DNA of 6,462 nt from Trebonia sp. (GTDB taxonomy: Bacteria > Actinomycetota > Actinomycetes > Streptosporangiales > Streptosporangiaceae): assembly GCA_030038035.1 (NCBI GenBank), contig JASHPP010000618.1:1-6462 (forward strand). Direction: 5' to 3'. A model generated the notes under the pieces. It was given only the letters and a program-made list of their open reading frames with translations. It searched no databases and was not told where the DNA came from. The first letter of the stretch is position 1. Each line of letters opens with the position of its first letter. Shown here in pieces: positions 741 to 6,462 of the stretch. The position numbers were made by a program, and so were the translations under genes.

Positions 741-770
741 TTGCGACCCCGCTGCTACCTGAGTGACAAT
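741..770 (+). promoter_or_regulatory. Weak candidate promoter for the hydrogenase-like operon
   Basis: TTGCGA (741-746) and GACAAT (765-770) are separated by 18 bases and could be -35 and -10 boxes of a housekeeping-type promoter. The -10 lacks the usual first T, so the match is poor. If used, transcription would start near 777 and the inverted repeat at 813-842 would lie in the 5' leader. No convincing promoter was found for the divergent minus-strand gene. Treat this as a suggestion only. Confidence 0.22.
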
Positions 771-812
771 AGGGGTTTGGCGATGAGGCTCGCCGCAACC
801 GTCCGGCGTCCG

Positions 813-842
813 GCCATTAGGCCGGCCTGCCGGCCTAATGGC
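813..842. repeat. Perfect 13-bp inverted repeat with 4-nt loop in the divergent spacer
   Basis: The left arm GCCATTAGGCCGG (813-825) and right arm CCGGCCTAATGGC (830-842) are exact reverse complements around the loop CCTG. A G-T pair (812/843) could extend the stem in RNA. It lies 42 bases before the leader ORF start and about 198 bases upstream of the DUF805 start. There is no T-run after either arm and no upstream plus-strand gene, so an ordinary intrinsic terminator is unlikely. It could be an operator for a dimeric regulator, a 5'-leader hairpin (stabiliser or attenuator), or a copy of a dispersed repeat. The structure is certain; the function is not known. Confidence 0.85.
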
Positions 843-870
843 TTCTATCCCTGTGTACAGTCACGTGGGT

Positions 871-883: not shown

Positions 884-940
884 GTGGCAGAGCCCCAGGA
901 ACCGGAACCTCCCGGCAATGAACCCAGGGCCGCGGTGTGA
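884..940 (+). CDS. 18-codon leader ORF coupled to the hyfC-like gene
   Basis: GTG 884 to TGA 938-940 encodes MAEPQEPEPPGNEPRAAV (GTG read as Met), an acidic, proline-rich peptide with no hydrophobic segment, cysteine or recognised family. Support comes from its position: AGGAGG lies 7 bases upstream, and its stop overlaps the next start in a GTGA junction (937-940), the same kind of 4-nt overlap seen at two later gene junctions. It is the first ORF of the operon and may deliver ribosomes to the poorly marked hyfC-like start. It could be a translational-coupling leader, a small accessory subunit, or the remnant of a longer gene. No earlier ATG, GTG or TTG exists in this frame back to the TAA at 836-838. 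The coding call rests on the start signal and the overlap only. Confidence 0.5.
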   Translation: MAEPQEPEPPGNEPRAAV

Positions 941-1899
941 GCGCGGCCCTGCCTATCCCGGTCATCCAGCTGTTGCAGGTTCTTACGGTCGCGCTTGGCG
1001 CGCCCGCGGTGACGGGCGTGATCGCCAAGGTCGAGGCGCGGCTGCAGGGCCGCCGAGGCCCCCGGGTACTGCAGCCGTACTACGACCTGGCCAAGCTGTG
1101 CCGCAAGGAGGCGCTGGCCCCTGCCGGGGCGAGCGCGTTCTTCCTCGCGGCGCCGCTCATCGCGGTCGCCGCCTACCTGACGATCCCGCTGCTGATCCCG
1201 GTGCTCACCACCTACGGCCTGCCGCTGGGGTACATGGGCGACATCCTGGGCGGCGGCTTCCTGCTCTCGCTGGCCAGCTTCGTGGTGGCGGTCGCCGCGC
1301 TGGAGACGGGCAGTCCCTACGCGCAGCTCGGATCGAGCCGGGCCAAGACGTTCTCGGCGATAACCGAGCCGGTCGTGCTGTTCGTCGTGTTCACTGTCGC
1401 GCTGCTGACCGGCACCGACCTGCCCTACGCGCTGGCCGCCACGGTCCGCTCCTCCGCCGGCCAGGTGATCCGCCCCGCGCACCTGCTCGCGTCCGCCGCG
1501 CTGTTCATGGTGATCCTGCACGAGACCGGGCGGATCCCCGTCGAGACCCATAGCGGCACGAACGAGTTCGGCATGATCGAGGAGGCCAGGTCCTTCGAGC
1601 ACTCCGGGCCGTACTTCGCGCTGCTGAAGTGGGGCTCGATGCTCAAGCAGATGATCCTGTTCACGATCTTGTCCGACGTGTTCCTCGTGCCGTGGGGCCT
1701 GGCGTCCACGCAGCGGCTCGGGTCGGTGCTGCTGGCGATCGCGGCGCTGCTCGCGAAGGCGGGCGCGGTGGGCGTCGTCGTCGCGGTGATCGACAACTCA
1801 TTCGCCAAGCTGCGCCTGTTCAAGATCACCGAATACGCGTCGGCCGCCTTCCTGCTCGCCGTGCTCGGCGTGTTCACGCTGTACCTGGGAGGCGGCTGA
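937..1899 (+). CDS. hyfC: HyfC/HycD-like (NuoH family) membrane subunit of a hydrogenase-related complex
   Basis: This 320-residue integral membrane protein is homologous to NuoH of complex I and HyfC/HycD of group 4 hydrogenases, the subunit that joins the peripheral arm to the pumping arm. Its first helix (about 9-30) runs into the signature KVEARLQGRRGPRVLQPYYD (31-50) and LAKLCRKEALAP. About eight hydrophobic segments follow, with SSRAKTF (133-139) and IPVETHSGTNEF (200-211) in the conserved loops. The end DNSFAKLRLFKITEY (286-300) is also typical. In the loop at 202-225, recalled relatives read THxELTMxHE; here the His residues are Thr208 and Glu215, while Glu210 and Glu216 remain. GTG 937 gives a normal N terminus. 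Its weak SD and GTGA overlap with the leader ORF suggest coupled translation. The stop overlaps the next ATG by one base (TGATG). Confidence 0.93.
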   Translation: MSAALPIPVIQLLQVLTVALGAPAVTGVIAKVEARLQGRRGPRVLQPYYDLAKLCRKEALAPAGASAFFLAAPLIAVAAYLTIPLLIPVLTTYGLPLGYMGDILGGGFLLSLASFVVAVAALETGSPYAQLGSSRAKTFSAITEPVVLFVVFTVALLTGTDLPYALAATVRSSAGQVIRPAHLLASAALFMVILHETGRIPVETHSGTNEFGMIEEARSFEHSGPYFALLKWGSMLKQMILFTILSDVFLVPWGLASTQRLGSVLLAIAALLAKAGAVGVVVAVIDNSFAKLRLFKITEYASAAFLLAVLGVFTLYLGGG

Positions 1900-2582
1900 T
1901 GAACTCTGCGCCAGGCATCTACGCGGGCGCGGCGAACGTGATCGCGGCGCTGATGCTGCTGCTTGAGTTCGGCATGCTGCGCCAGGCGCTGGTCAGGGAC
2001 CAGGTCCGCCTGTACGCCGTGCAGTCCGCGCTGATATCCGTCCTGGCGGTCGTCATCGCCGCCGACCGGGGCCTGCCCGACCTGTACGCGCTTGCCGGGC
2101 TGTCCGCCGCGCTCAAGGTCGTCGCGGTCCCGCTGGTGCTGCGCCGGCTGCTGCCGGGAAGCGTCGACGTCCGCGAGGAGCCGCCCGGGGTCGCGGGCAG
2201 CCACACGCTCAGCCCCGCGATCGCGGTGCTCGCGGCGATCGGCCTGGCGGCGTTCGGGTTCTTCGCGGTCGGCTCGTTCCACATGGGCGGCCCGGGCGCG
2301 CCGGCCCTCGCGCTGGCCATCGCCGCGGCGATGGTGTTCGTCGCGTTCGGCCTGATGATCATCCGCAAGGACGTCGCCTCCCAGGCGATCGGGTTCTTCT
2401 CGCTTGAGAACGCGATCTCGCTGGCCGCGCTCGTGGTGGCGGCCGGGCTGCCGCTGATCCTGGAGACCGCGTTCCTGTTCGACCTGCTGGTGGCCGTCGT
2501 GGTGTTCGGCATGCTGACGCGGGCGCACCATGCCAGGACGGACTCGCTGTCCACCGCCGACCTGACCCGGCTGCGCGGATGA
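1899..2582 (+). CDS. hyfE: HyfE-like (NuoK-related) membrane subunit
   Basis: This 227-residue protein has about seven hydrophobic helices (near 10-27, 38-56, 62-83, 104-125, 134-154, 162-184 and 188-207). The second half carries the HyfE/NuoK pattern IRKDVASQAIGFFSLENAIS (155-174) followed by LPLILETAFLFDLLVAVVVFG (184-204). Glu170 and Glu189 occupy positions expected for the buried acidic residues that NuoK-type subunits use in proton transfer. The best start is ATG 1899, with GGGAGG (1887-1892) 6 bases upstream, sharing one base with the preceding TGA. It corresponds to hycP (Rv0085) in the M. tuberculosis locus and to HyfE in E. coli hydrogenase 4. A short hydrophilic tail (208-227) ends the protein. 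Nothing appears truncated, and the acidic residues needed for ion transfer seem to be kept. Confidence 0.9.
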   Translation: MNSAPGIYAGAANVIAALMLLLEFGMLRQALVRDQVRLYAVQSALISVLAVVIAADRGLPDLYALAGLSAALKVVAVPLVLRRLLPGSVDVREEPPGVAGSHTLSPAIAVLAAIGLAAFGFFAVGSFHMGGPGAPALALAIAAAMVFVAFGLMIIRKDVASQAIGFFSLENAISLAALVVAAGLPLILETAFLFDLLVAVVVFGMLTRAHHARTDSLSTADLTRLRG

Positions 2583-2595
2583 GCGGGGCCAGCCG

Positions 2596-4083
2596 ATGAT
2601 CGCAGTCCTGCTCGCCATCTTGATCGTGCCGCTGGCCGCCGCGCTCGCCTGCCTGGCGCTGCCTGCCCGCGCGGCGGCCGCCGTCGCGGTCGTCTCGGGG
2701 ATCGCCAGCTTCGGCCTTGTCCTCGCGCTGGTGCCTGACGCCTCGCACGGGGACCTGTCCGGCTTGTCCGGCTACCTGCGGGTCGACGCGGTGAGCGCGG
2801 TCTTCCTGCTCGCGACCAGCTTCCTGTACGCGGCGGTGGCCACCTACGCGGTCGGTTACCTGAAATCGCATCACGACGACGCGTACGCACGCCGCTTCTG
2901 GGTCGGGTTCAACGCGTTCGCCTGGGCGATGCTGGCCGCCCCGCTGATGGGCAGCCTGGCCCTGCTGTGGATCGCGGTCGAGGTGACCACGGTCATCTCC
3001 GCGCTGCTCGTCGCGATCGAGGACACCGACGGCGCCGCCGAGGCGGCCTGGAAGTACGTCCTGATCGCCTCCGCCGGCCTGGGCCTGGGGCTGCTTGCCA
3101 CGGTCTTCGCCTACTACGCCGGGTCCCAGGTCCTCGGCGAGCATTACAACCTCGCGATCCAGCCGCTGATCCAGGCCGGGTCCCGGCTGCCGAAGACACC
3201 GGTCGAGCTCGCCTTCCTGCTCGCCGTCCTCGGCTACGGCACGAAGGTCGGCCTGTTCCCCGTGCACACGTGGCTGCCCGACGCGCACTCAGAGGCGCCG
3301 ACCCCGGTGTCCGCGCTGCTGTCCGGCGCGCTGCTCGCGACCAGCTTCTACGCGATTCTGCGGTTCTACCAGGTCGCCGGCGCGGCGCTCGGCACCGGCT
3401 TCCCGCGCGAGGTCCTGCTGGCGTTCGGGATCGCCTCGCTGCTGCTAGCGTCGCTGTACGTGTTCGGCCAGCGGGACGTCAAGCGGCTGCTCGCCTACTC
3501 CAGCGTGGAACACATGGGCATCCTCGCGGTCGGCGTGTCGTTCGGCGTCCCCGTCGCGCTGGCCGGGGTGCTGCTGCACGTGATGGCGCACGCGGCCGCC
3601 AAGGGCAACGCGTTCATGGGGGCGGGGGTGTTCACGGTGAAGTACGGGACCAAGCGGATGTCGGCGATGCGCGGCGGCCTGGCGCTGCTGCCGTGGAGCG
3701 GGCCGCTGTTCCTGCTGGCGATCCTCGCGCTGTCCGCGCTGCCGCCGTTCGGCGTCTTCCGCAGCGAGTTCCAGATCGTCGCGGGCGGCCTGTCCAGCGG
3801 CAGCTACGCCGCCGGTGCCGTCCTGGTCGTGCTGGTGACACTGGCGTTCTTCGGGCTGGCCACCGCGGCGACCGGCATGCTGCTGACCCCGGCGTCCCCG
3901 GCGTCCCCGGCGTCCCCTGCGTCCGCGTCCGCCCCGGCGAAGGCGCCAGGCGAGCCGACCAGCTGGATGGTCGTCCCGGTGCTCGCCGGGCTGGCGGTCC
4001 TCGTGCTGCTCGGCGTGCACCCCCCAGGCGAGCTCACGGACCTGATCGCCCGCGGCGCCGCCCAGCTGCGGGGCACGCCATGA
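2596..4083 (+). CDS. hyfF: HyfF-like (NuoL/M/N, Mrp antiporter family) proton-channel subunit
   Basis: This 495-residue, roughly 14-helix protein carries the proton-antiporter (Proton_antipo_M) domain and is expected to move H+ or Na+ across the membrane. Channel residues are visible: Glu129 in LLWIAVE (helix 5 Glu), Lys153, Lys217 in GYGTK followed by the family loop FPVHTWLPDAHSEAPTPVSA (221-240), His328/His332/Lys336 in the HVMAHAAAKG stretch, and Glu391 in FRSEF. DVKRLLAYSSVEHMG (294-308) is also typical. ATG 2596 lies 13 bases after the HyfE stop with only a weak GGGG upstream. The end overlaps the next gene by ATGA (4080-4083). An oddity is the Ala/Ser/Pro linker at 431-454, encoded by a 9-bp tandem repeat, placed between the last hydrophobic segments. 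Unlike the soluble subunits downstream, no key residue appears lost, so ion translocation remains plausible. Confidence 0.94.
   Translation: MIAVLLAILIVPLAAALACLALPARAAAAVAVVSGIASFGLVLALVPDASHGDLSGLSGYLRVDAVSAVFLLATSFLYAAVATYAVGYLKSHHDDAYARRFWVGFNAFAWAMLAAPLMGSLALLWIAVEVTTVISALLVAIEDTDGAAEAAWKYVLIASAGLGLGLLATVFAYYAGSQVLGEHYNLAIQPLIQAGSRLPKTPVELAFLLAVLGYGTKVGLFPVHTWLPDAHSEAPTPVSALLSGALLATSFYAILRFYQVAGAALGTGFPREVLLAFGIASLLLASLYVFGQRDVKRLLAYSSVEHMGILAVGVSFGVPVALAGVLLHVMAHAAAKGNAFMGAGVFTVKYGTKRMSAMRGGLALLPWSGPLFLLAILALSALPPFGVFRSEFQIVAGGLSSGSYAAGAVLVVLVTLAFFGLATAATGMLLTPASPASPASPASASAPAKAPGEPTSWMVVPVLAGLAVLVLLGVHPPGELTDLIARGAAQLRGTP
3892..3930 (+). repeat. 9-bp tandem repeat encoding an Ala-Ser-Pro linker in the HyfF-like protein
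   Basis: Two exact GCGTCCCCG units (3892-3909) are followed by GCGTCCCCT (3910-3918) and a decayed GCGTCCGCG plus TCC. They encode Ala-Ser-Pro three times and then Ala-Ser-Ala-Ser, starting at residue 433. The unit length is a multiple of three, so slippage changes linker length and not the reading frame. The linker sits between predicted membrane segments and is probably exposed. Confidence 0.88.
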
Positions 4084-5525
4084 CGATCACCAGCACGCAG
4101 CCGTGCGTGGCGGCGCTCTGGGACGCCGTGGACGCCAGGATCGCCGGCGGCGGCCGTTTCGCCGGCCTGTTCGCCGCGCCGGCCCGGGCAGCGGACACCG
4201 AACCGGGCGGCGGCGTCACGCTGTCCGCGCACGTCGCCGTCCCCGGCGGGATCGACACGCTCCAGACGACGCTGCCGCCAGGCGCCGCCGGGTACCCGGC
4301 GCTCACCCCCCGCCAGCCCGCCGCGTTCTGGTACGAGCGGGTGATCCACGACCAGACCGGGATCGTGCCGGAAGGGCACTCCCGGCTCGCCCCGCTCGTC
4401 GGCCCGGGGGATCCGGACGATCACACGCTGCCGCGGCACGTCGCCGGCTACGGCGTGTTCACGATCCCGCACGGCCCGGTGCGGTCCGGCGTGCTCGAGT
4501 CGATGGAATACCTCGTCGAGACTCCCGGCGAGGCGATCCCGCACCTGAACATGCGGATCTTCTACAAGCACCGCGGCATCGCCGCCCGGTTCACGGGGAT
4601 GAGCGTCGCCGACGCCGTGCTGCTCGCCGAACGGGCCGAAGGCATCGCCTCCGTCGCGCACGCCCTCGCGTTCTGCCACGCGGTGGAGGCGATCGCGGGC
4701 TGCCAGGTGCCGCGGGAGGCAGGCCTCGTCCGCGTCGCGCACGCCGAGCTCGAACGGATCGCCAACCACCTGGACGTCGCCATGCGGCTGGCCGACGCGG
4801 CCGGCCTCGCCGTGGCCACCACCCGGTTCGCGCTGCACAAGGAGCGGGTGCTGCGCCTGGTCAGCGCGCTGTGCGGCAGCCGCTTCGGGCGCGGCGTCGT
4901 GGTGCCAGGCGGCGTGTCGGCATGGCCGGATCCGAGCCCGGTCCTGCCCGACCTGGCCCGCCTGGAAAAGCAGGTCAAGACCGACGCCGACGCGGTCATG
5001 GCCACTTCCTCGTTCCTCGACCGGATCCGCGGCACCGGCCCGCTCGACGCCGGCCGGGCCCGCGAGCACGGCGCGCTCGGGCCGATCGGCAAGGCGTCCG
5101 GGTACGCCGACGACGACCGCCTCGCCCGCCCCTACGACGCCTACCCGCTGCTGGCCGTCCCGCCCGCCGGCCAGCACGTGGCCGGGGACGCCCTCGCCAG
5201 GCTCCGTGTCCGGTGGGAGGAGGTGGACCAGGCTTTCCGCCTGATCTGGCAGGCCCTTTCCGATTTCCCCGAACGATCCGGGCCGTCTCCGCACGTCCCC
5301 TGCCCCGCGGTCGACGGCCGGGCGACCGGCTGGGCCGAGGCCCCCCAGGGCGAGGTGCTCTACGACCTGACGATCGAGGACGGCCGGATCGCCCGCTGCC
5401 AGCCGCGGTCGGCCTCGTTCCACGACCTCGTGCTCATGCACCAGGTCTTCGCCGGTGACATCCTCACCGACTTCCCGTTCATCGAGGCCAGCTTCGGCCT
5501 GTCGGTCGCGGGCGCGGCCATGTGA
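4080..5525 (+). CDS. hyfG: HyfG-like (NuoCD-related) large subunit lacking all four NiFe-ligand cysteines
   Basis: This 481-residue soluble subunit would sit on the membrane arm beside the HyfC-like protein. Residues 1-107 are a short NuoC-type region ending in AFWYERVIHDQTGIVPEGH (82-100). The catalytic-subunit fold follows: HGPVRSGVLESMEY (131-144), PHLNMRIFYKHRGIAARFTG (154-173), SVAHALAFCHAVE (191-203) and AELERIANHLD (222-232). In real hydrogenases the first CxxC is ERICGIC; here residues 184-190 read ERAEGIA, giving Glu187 and Ala190. The C-terminal DPCxxC after ADFPLI is replaced in TDFPFIEASFGLSVAGAAM (463-481), giving Ser475 and Gly478, and the chain ends there. NiFe binding and H2 chemistry are therefore not expected. 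ATG 4080 overlaps the HyfF stop (ATGA). The open frame extends far upstream, but that part is out-of-frame reading of hyfF. This is an Ehr-type subunit; its real substrate is unknown. Confidence 0.93.
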   Translation: MTITSTQPCVAALWDAVDARIAGGGRFAGLFAAPARAADTEPGGGVTLSAHVAVPGGIDTLQTTLPPGAAGYPALTPRQPAAFWYERVIHDQTGIVPEGHSRLAPLVGPGDPDDHTLPRHVAGYGVFTIPHGPVRSGVLESMEYLVETPGEAIPHLNMRIFYKHRGIAARFTGMSVADAVLLAERAEGIASVAHALAFCHAVEAIAGCQVPREAGLVRVAHAELERIANHLDVAMRLADAAGLAVATTRFALHKERVLRLVSALCGSRFGRGVVVPGGVSAWPDPSPVLPDLARLEKQVKTDADAVMATSSFLDRIRGTGPLDAGRAREHGALGPIGKASGYADDDRLARPYDAYPLLAVPPAGQHVAGDALARLRVRWEEVDQAFRLIWQALSDFPERSGPSPHVPCPAVDGRATGWAEAPQGEVLYDLTIEDGRIARCQPRSASFHDLVLMHQVFAGDILTDFPFIEASFGLSVAGAAM

Positions 5526-5544
5526 TTGCCTGGGAGGCGGAACA

Positions 5545-6321
5545 GTGAGCATCTGGGCGCTGCACGGGCTGCGCGACGGGGTGGTGACGACCCGCTGGCC
5601 ACGCCGCGGCGACGAATACGCGCACGCCTGGCGGGGGCCGGCCGTGGTGCGCGGCGACGCGGCGGCGGCGCACATCGCGGCGGCCGACGCCGCCGCGATG
5701 TGCCCGACAGGAGCGATCGAGGTCTCCGGGCGGGTCGCCGTCGACCAGGGGCGATGCATCCTGTGCGGGCGGTGCGTGGCGGCGCGGCCCGACGTGTTCG
5801 CCTGGTCGGCTGGCGCGACAGGGCCGCGCGCGGCGACGGTCACCAGGCAGGCGCTTGTCGTCCCCCCTGCGCCGGAGACCGACGCGGCGGTCGCGGCGGT
5901 GCGCGCCGCGCTCGCGGCGCGCACCGCCGCCCTGCGCCGCAGCGTGCACATCCGGCACGTGGACGCGGGCTCGGACGGCGCCGAGGAGTGGGAGATCCAG
6001 GCGCTGCTCGGCCCCGTCTACGACGTGCACCGGCTCGGCGTCTTCTTCACCGCCAGCCCGCGGCACGCCGACGTGCTGCTCGTCACCGGCGCCGGGGCGC
6101 CCGGCATGGCCGGGCCGCTGCGCGCCACGTACGAGGGAATGCCCGACCCGAGGGTGGTGATCGCCGTCGGCGCCGACGCGGTCAGCGGCGGCCTGCTCGG
6201 GGACCGGCTCACCGGGGTGTCGGCCATCGTGCCCGTCGACATTTGGGTCCCGGGCAGCCCGCCACCGCCGTTCGGAATATTGAAAGCCTTGCTGATCGCG
6301 ATGGGAAAGCTGATCCGATGA
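5545..6321 (+). CDS. Ferredoxin-HyfI/NuoB-like fused small subunit lacking the proximal [4Fe-4S] ligands
   Basis: This 258-residue protein looks like a HyfH-type ferredoxin fused to a HyfI/NuoB small subunit. After the N-terminal WALHGLRDGVVTTRWPR motif (4-20) comes a ferredoxin-like region: Cys53-Pro54 in MCPTGAIEV and Cys71, Cys74, Cys77 in CILCGRC. Those four can bind one [4Fe-4S]; the other cluster's ligands are His, Ala, Ala and Arg81. The NuoB-like half starts at SVHIRHVDAGS (133-143) and contains SPRHADVLLVTG (171-182) and YEGMPDPRVVIAVG (196-209). All four proximal-cluster cysteines are missing: SCNGCE became SDGAEE (Asp144, Glu147), GDCA became GADA (Asp211), and PGCPP became PGSPP (Ser238). 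GTG 5545 has GGGAGG (5532-5537) 7 bases upstream and follows the large-subunit stop after 19 bases. The stop overlaps the next gene by ATGA. No frameshift is seen, so the losses look selected or tolerated, not decayed. Confidence 0.9.
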   Translation: MSIWALHGLRDGVVTTRWPRRGDEYAHAWRGPAVVRGDAAAAHIAAADAAAMCPTGAIEVSGRVAVDQGRCILCGRCVAARPDVFAWSAGATGPRAATVTRQALVVPPAPETDAAVAAVRAALAARTAALRRSVHIRHVDAGSDGAEEWEIQALLGPVYDVHRLGVFFTASPRHADVLLVTGAGAPGMAGPLRATYEGMPDPRVVIAVGADAVSGGLLGDRLTGVSAIVPVDIWVPGSPPPPFGILKALLIAMGKLIR

Positions 6322-6462
6322 GCGCGCTGTTCGCGGCCGGGCTGATCCTGCTCGGGGTGGCGGGGGCCGGCGCGCTGCTGCCGTCACGGCCCGGGCGGGC
6401 GCGGGGGCTGCCCTATCTGGCGGGCGCGGCCGGGGCGGCGTGCCTGGCGGTCGCGGGCGGGT
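6318..6462 (+). CDS. Start of a hydrophobic subunit, probably HyfB-like (partial, cut by window end)
   Basis: ATG 6318 overlaps the preceding TGA in ATGA (6318-6321) and opens a frame of 48 complete codons to the window edge. The visible protein begins with a hydrophobic helix (MSALFAAGLILLGVAGAGALL, about residues 3-21), a basic turn (SRPGRARG) and a second hydrophobic stretch (from residue 31), the usual beginning of a NuoL/M/N-type antiporter subunit. The HyfB-like subunit is the one member of the HyfB-C-E-F-G-I set not yet seen in this operon, and in M. tuberculosis the HyfB-like gene directly follows the small-subunit gene. The identity is inferred mainly from position; the conserved antiporter core is beyond the window. 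Confidence 0.68.
   Translation, partial: MSALFAAGLILLGVAGAGALLPSRPGRARGLPYLAGAAGAACLAVAGG

Follow-up and report, generated by a model that had tools for sequence, protein, structure and literature searches.

In the small subunit of an Ehr-type complex (group-4-hydrogenase-like subunits, NiFe ligands lost) encoded in a 6,462-nucleotide stretch of Trebonia sp. DNA, the whole of which is termed the window here, the four Cys that ligate the proximal, N2-type [4Fe-4S] cluster were found to be replaced by Asp, Glu, Asp and Ser. Comparison of homologues gives good support to this ligand loss as a real and conserved feature of a fluoride-linked Ehr branch. Our preferred reading, held at somewhat better than even, is that the complex is a fluoride-responsive Ehr which had its electron wire dismantled in Actinomycetota and would now serve as a redox-independent cation/H+ exchanger.

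Results

Replacement of the N2-type ligands in the small subunit

The small-subunit reading frame is intact (start GTG 5545, stop 6319-6321, 258 aa) and GGGAGG stands ahead of it at 5532-5537. In an alignment of the protein to HycG of E. coli and MbhJ of P. furiosus, positions 144, 147, 211 and 238 fell in the four cluster-Cys columns, and the codons there (Table 1) agree with the Asp, Glu, Asp and Ser read in an earlier note on this DNA. The absence of these ligands also supports that note's suggestion that the usual electron route would be cut. The ferredoxin part of the protein lacks the distal cluster motif, leaving a single [4Fe-4S] motif (C53, C71, C74, C77), which by the usual ligand scheme we take to be that of the cluster next to N2; two ferredoxin motifs are present in the fluoride-linked relatives L018, L019 and L091-L093.

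Table 1. Features located in the window, numbered from its first nucleotide
Feature	Position	Strand	Remarks
Fluoride riboswitch aptamer (RF01734, crcB motif), predicted	770..854	+	29.2 bits, E 4.6e-5; precedes HyfC at 937
13-bp hairpin over conserved 3' aptamer segment CUAAUGGC	813..842	+	putative alternative fold
HyfC/NuoH-like membrane subunit	937..1899	+	aligns with E. coli HycD (7z0s_D, E 1.2e-38)
HyfE-like membrane subunit	1896..2582	+	hydrogenase 4 membrane subunit, E 1.5e-15, under its cut-off
HyfF-like antiporter-type subunit	2596..4083	+	E129, K153, K217, H332, K336 present
HyfG/NuoCD-like large subunit	4080..5525	+	NiFe ligand motifs replaced: AERAEGIASVAH, LTDFPFIEASFG
Small subunit gene	5545..6321	+	ferredoxin domain with one cluster motif, fused to NuoB/HyfI-like domain without cluster ligands
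Remaining [4Fe-4S] motif: Cys53 (CP) and Cys71, Cys74, Cys77 (CxxCxxC)	5701..5775	+	
Asp144, first cluster-Cys position	5974..5976	+	codon GAC
Glu147, second cluster-Cys position	5983..5985	+	codon GAG
Asp211, third cluster-Cys position	6175..6177	+	codon GAC
Ser238, fourth cluster-Cys position	6256..6258	+	codon AGC
Further subunit gene, 5' end	6318..6462	+	cut by window end; probably HyfB-like, by gene order in L002

We examined the four positions in three homologue sets, the best 120 of 4261, 5063 and 2874 matches (359 distinct proteins, the window's own included); the description thus covers the near family. Cys was found at none of the four positions in any of the 359 proteins. The first set (best 120 of 4261, window protein included), in which the 119 other proteins are 71-81% identical to the window protein, read DEDS in 114, DADS in 2, DEDD in 2, DEDN in 1 and DEES in 1 (letters in the order 144, 147, 211, 238). 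The second (best 120 of 5063), obtained with the Mycobacterium branderi protein, itself N/D/D/A, as query, read DDDA in 76, DDDS in 29, NDDA in 13, DDDT in 1 and DDDG in 1, and the third (best 120 of 2874, of which 119 were new) DEDS in 95, DADN in 8, DVDS in 6, DDDS in 4, DVDD in 3 and single patterns in 4. Over the three best-120 sets position 144 is Asp except for Asn in 13 proteins and position 211 is Asp except for one Glu; position 147 varies among E, D, A and V, and position 238 among S, A, D, N, T and G. The earlier note's replacement of three ligands by acidic residues therefore stands for the window protein, but across homologues only positions 144 and 211 are near-invariant, and a strict four-ligand carboxylate metal site was rejected because positions 147 and 238 vary. 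Its argument against simple decay is upheld by the intact frame and by the conserved pattern among the best homologues, which speaks against chance as well.

Ligand Cys at shifted places were rejected as well: no conserved Cys stands in for N2 in the first two best-120 sets, where 119/120 proteins of the first (best 120 of 4261) have no Cys after the RHVD motif and, of the second (best 120 of 5063), 85/120 have none, 33 have one and 2 lack the anchor. An intact second NuoB within the same operon was likewise rejected, a single NuoB-like match being present per locus in L002, L017 and L019. Cys are retained in two copies of NuoB and in three further small subunits of the group-4 type encoded by genomes of relatives, so the loss is specific to the present complex. 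In genomes G454 and G435 a paralogue with all four Cys (CCCC) lies within 10 kb of the Cys-free operon, and was taken as part of a second complex because it has its own large subunit; at these places (L088/L102 in G454, L089 in G435) two Ehr operons adjoin, one Cys-free and one CCCC. How widespread the loss is, which the earlier note had left open, was answered in part by two genome samples: 3/396 genomes of a phylum sample and 15/198 of an order sample had a match at E <= 1e-84 (one genome common to both), and every match was Cys-free.

Fluoride riboswitch ahead of the operon

The predicted aptamer of the window scores under the Rfam gathering score of 34, and its pairing is that of the motif (P1 GGCG/CGCC, pseudoknot GAGGC/GCUUC). 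All rows in a comparison with relatives pair in this way, the window included, and an alignment of 16 aptamer copies has compensatory change in 3/4 P1 pairs and one pseudoknot pair. Compared with shuffles of the alignment, 97.9% of cells were paired vs 79.7%, 28 cells were changed on both sides vs 11.9, and the covariation score was 0.453 vs 0.143 (0/500 shuffles reached the observed value in each case), but measures counting pairs or pair types in the same 16-copy alignment did not exceed shuffles (142 and 274 of 500). Between aptamer and operon, an 18-codon leader ORF (884-940, + strand) was read by eye behind a strong ribosome site (AGGAGG, 871-876); its end, GTGTGA, overlaps the HyfC GTG start, as if the two were translationally coupled. 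Divergent from these, at 1-615 on the - strand, lies a gene whose product, a small and presumably DUF805-like membrane protein, is rich in Gln, Pro and Tyr at its N-terminus.

Genome-wide, RF01734 matches fell on the strand of the small-subunit reading frame and 3.1-6.8 kb upstream of it, that is, at the operon 5' end (distances counted from the stop preceding that frame). Fluoride riboswitches that exceed the gathering score (40-58 bits) number 4 in L017, 3 in L018 and 8 in L019. Many actinobacterial aptamers have P1 CCGG/CCGG and often extra sequence between the conserved parts, with low scores (those of L075-L090, L100 and L101 gave 16-30 bits with Rfam, or were missed), so the Rfam model probably undercounts them. 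We also used a model, R1, built from the 16 aptamer sequences (including the window and several of the loci counted below), in which P1 is the sole helix. Outside its training set R1 matched eleven loci at the expected place, E 4e-14 to 5e-4 (L079, L084, L088, L089, L086, L075, L100, L103, L099, L101 and, partially, L090), and at E <= 1e-3 it matched none of the control loci L020, L021, L104-L107, L109 and L113-L128; the best control match, same-strand and upstream in L118, was partial and, at E 0.012, fell short of the threshold. The Burkholderiales-type riboswitch was missed by R1 and found by Rfam. At E <= 1 Rfam found no fluoride switch in L002, L075, L086, L089, L099, L100 or L101; the calls for L075, L086, L089, L100 and L101 come from a core pattern and R1 only, that for L090 from the core pattern and a partial R1 match only, and those for L103 and L099 from R1 only.

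Distribution of riboswitch and ligand loss on the large-subunit tree

The count covered rows with upstream DNA of roughly 5 kb or longer (L129, with 4946 bases, was retained). In these, a locus was scored as having the switch when a same-strand upstream match was given by RF01734, either at E <= 0.1 or over the gathering score, or by R1 at E <= 1e-3. L003, L004, L005/L130, L080, L085, L089 (+ strand copy), L098, L119 and L123 were omitted for short upstream DNA; L131 duplicates L001, and L130 duplicates L005. The riboswitch was present upstream in 20/21 Cys-free rows (window included), 6/8 rows with partial loss and 10/29 CCCC rows, Fisher values on these tallies ignoring kinship. Before R1 the counts were 19/21 Cys-free and 9/29 CCCC, R1 having added L099 and L103, respectively. 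The one Cys-free exception, L002, had no match near its operon with either Rfam or R1. Since 10 CCCC rows carry it, the riboswitch is a trait distinct from Cys loss.

A large-subunit tree of 64 rows was made by a "quick" method (L003, L004 and L098 are not in it). A starred branch separates 41 rows, called the fluoride side, from 23; the riboswitch was found in 36/37 testable rows on the 41-row side vs 0/21 on the 23-row side, and the association of this Ehr branch with the riboswitch is, as judged from sequence, well supported. The 24 Cys-free rows make up one side of a branch (SH-aLRT 94), all on the fluoride side, and four CCPS rows join them (95, starred branch). The fluoride side also holds CCCC, CCCN and CCPS rows, CCCN arising within another fluoride group. 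The clade thus appears to have been linked to fluoride first and to have lost ligands within it, on the root and order that we assign to the tree. Two Ehr loci of the non-fluoride side, L107 (G243:C6) and L109 (G286:C24), have T/C/D/D at the ligand positions and no fluoride switch match.

The four NiFe Cys (RxCGxC and DPCxxC) are absent from the window large subunit, and the sequences standing at the two motifs identify the complex as an Ehr, as the earlier note had proposed. All 41 large subunits of the fluoride side lack both RxCGxC and DPCxxC; on the non-fluoride side, seven rows combine RxCGxC with D-[PAG]-CxxC. Glu occupies a NiFe-Cys place of the L1 motif in 22/24 Cys-free rows and, in 24/24, closes the L2 motif (TDFxFIE type). 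The RLDY of complex I, a column which we take to hold the quinone-site Tyr of NuoD, aligns with RAEG in the window protein, so the quinone-site Tyr is also missing.

Loss of the ferredoxin motif in a sub-branch

Cys53, 71, 74 and 77 are retained in 239/240 proteins of the first two sets (best 120 each); in the third (best 120 of 2874) all four are retained in 105/120 and all four are absent in 14/120. None of the four is present in L099, L100 and L101 (DVDS, DVDD), and the L100 small subunit has zero Cys in the whole protein. Within the fetched L099, L100 and L101 loci, CxxCxxC occurred in only two ORFs (one in L099, one in L100), neither ferredoxin-like, though a ferredoxin may be encoded outside these loci. 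dN was well under dS for L100 vs L101 (0.058 and 0.311) and, in another pair, for L002 vs L003 (0.053 and 0.177), ratios of about 0.2 and 0.3; these proteins are therefore kept by selection, and the sub-branch without the ferredoxin motif remains under purifying selection.

Membrane subunits, ion path and neighbouring genes

Membrane-arm subunits of the HyfB, C, E and F types are encoded, HyfB by its 5' end in the window and whole in relatives. Residue counts were taken from the best ORF per locus; where a locus has two operons, that ORF may belong to either copy. In HyfF of the Cys-free rows besides the window, E129 was kept in 22/23, K153 in 21/23, K217 in 22/23, and H332, K336 and E391 in 23/23; MbhH has the same residues in the columns of E129, K217, H332 and K336. 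In HyfB (L002 numbering) the Cys-free rows keep E132, K211, K339 and E394 in 23/23 and H335 in 22/23, and in HyfC they keep D102, E144, E210 and E221 in 21/21 and E216 in 20/21. These are residues known or presumed to move ions. According to a passage of PMC5703873, Mrp antiport depends on one Glu and one Lys, shared with complex I, in MrpA and MrpD.

Beside the operon of L002 (Conexibacter sp. S30A1) are eno and two crcB genes, beside that of L017 (M. branderi) eno and a DUF190 gene, and beside that of L019 (a B. cenocepacia plasmid) genes for PPase, HAD, DUF190, crcB and a voltage-gated chloride channel-type protein. No formate dehydrogenase is among the annotated neighbours of L017 and L019. 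A CLC-type gene matching that of the L019 fluoride island was also seen in L114, L116 and L120-L122, near true group-4 NiFe hydrogenases.

Discussion

Taken together, a dismantled electron wire and retained ion-translocating residues make a redox-independent exchanger the most likely function. The fluoride riboswitch and fluoride-related neighbours, which the earlier note does not mention, provide the likeliest setting for it. We propose that fluoride would turn the operon on through the riboswitch, giving a complex with a membrane arm of HyfC, E and F (and HyfB, by the gene order of relatives) and a peripheral arm of HyfG and the ferredoxin-fused small subunit. Its electron wire would have been taken apart by loss of the NiFe ligands, the entry ferredoxin cluster motif and the N2-type ligands, and it would exchange cations for H+ without electrons, Mrp-like in action. 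HF entry acidifies the cell; the exchanger would export the protons brought by HF and so help to maintain pH and the membrane potential for fluoride export. What was once the redox arm would persist as a cap, structural or gating, in which Asp144 and Asp211 perhaps replace the cluster by a charged or protonatable core. A passage of a 2024 review (PMC11139923) gives Na+/H+ antiporters as the next commonest fluoride-riboswitch class after exporters. The wider claim, that this is a complex I-like machine which keeps its quinone/hydrogenase arm and carries out no redox chemistry, we hold tentatively, at a little short of even. The single cluster motif kept in most members calls for caution on a redox-free reading, as it may be structural, a sensor, or serve an unseen redox step.

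It is unlikely, in our estimate, that redox still drives the complex, with electrons passing from the remaining ferredoxin-type cluster directly to a chamber acceptor or with an unrecognised cofactor in place of N2. The near-general retention of Cys53, 71, 74 and 77 speaks for this, but no conserved Cys substitutes for N2, the L100/L101 type lacks the ferredoxin motif in the fetched loci and yet is selected, and the remaining cluster would lie about two relay steps from the chamber. The MBS/Mbx sulfane-sulfur reductase, a complex I family member without the full NiFe site, demonstrates that the family can change its chemistry; as described in an excerpt of PMC7684303, however, the catalyst of MBS is its 3-Cys proximal cluster, which ends a three-cluster wire, and those ligands are missing in the window small subunit. 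Somewhat less probable still is a channel for protons or cations gated by fluoride or pH, or a regulator of other transporters, in which carboxylates of the old N2 and NiFe pockets would form a proton path or an Mg2+/F- sensor. The near-invariance of Asp144 and Asp211 and the Glu residues at the L1 and L2 motifs are consistent with it, but with Ala or Val at position 147 in part of the family and N/D/D/A in M. branderi there is no fixed metal site, and the AF2 model of the small subunit, of middling quality (pLDDT 68.9), provides no pocket structure.

Relaxed constraint, with the operon as an Ehr relic in decay that fluoride islands carry along, is improbable. Stepwise loss (CCCC, CCCN, CCPS, none) does resemble erosion of a redox function; against this stand the intact frame, the high identity to the window protein in the first homologue set, the kept ion-path residues of the Cys-free group and the dN/dS ratios of the two pairs, the last two of which led us to reject decay. 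That the operon encodes a fluoride-induced formate hydrogenlyase-type fermentation enzyme is the least credible of these alternatives, at very low probability, even though crcB motifs are placed ahead of "formate hydrogen lyase" genes in a passage of Weinberg 2010 (PMC2864571), and the 2024 review (PMC11139923), in the part that concerns them, repeats the label and reads it as formate oxidation. The N2 ligands are absent in the window protein, a formate dehydrogenase is lacking among the annotated neighbours of L017 and L019, and a true formate hydrogenlyase was rejected because the NiFe motifs are absent from the fluoride-side large subunits, for whose rows the label is therefore unfit. The "formate hydrogenlyase" of fluoride-riboswitch lists may be complexes of this kind, if the genes are the same, as we presume.

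The exchanger that we favour differs from other Ehr complexes in lacking N2-type ligands, in its fluoride riboswitch, and in having one sub-branch without the ferredoxin motif. Compared with formate hydrogenlyase and hydrogenase-4 (Hyc, Hyf), the window complex lacks NiFe ligands, N2 ligands and the entry cluster motif, and compared with respiratory complex I it lacks the N2 cluster ligands. It resembles the Mrp cation/H+ antiporters in its antiporter-type subunits with key Glu and Lys and in the redox-free action proposed for it, but it keeps a HyfG/HyfI peripheral arm and a NuoH-like subunit. With the fluoride riboswitch regulon (crcB, CLC-F, eno, ppa) it shares the riboswitch and, in relatives, the neighbouring genes; the Ehr member of that regulon would be the one labelled formate hydrogen lyase in the literature. 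Fluoride service alone needs no ligand loss, given the 10 fluoride-linked CCCC relatives (L018, L019 and L091-L093 among them).

Ehr complexes, whose function is mostly unknown, thereby gain a concrete setting, fluoride stress, and a probable mislabel in the fluoride regulon is pointed out. The branch would offer a natural experiment for complex I, on the role of the peripheral arm and the E-channel when no electrons flow, and its graded series of ligand losses would make redox-free ion transport by this superfamily directly testable.
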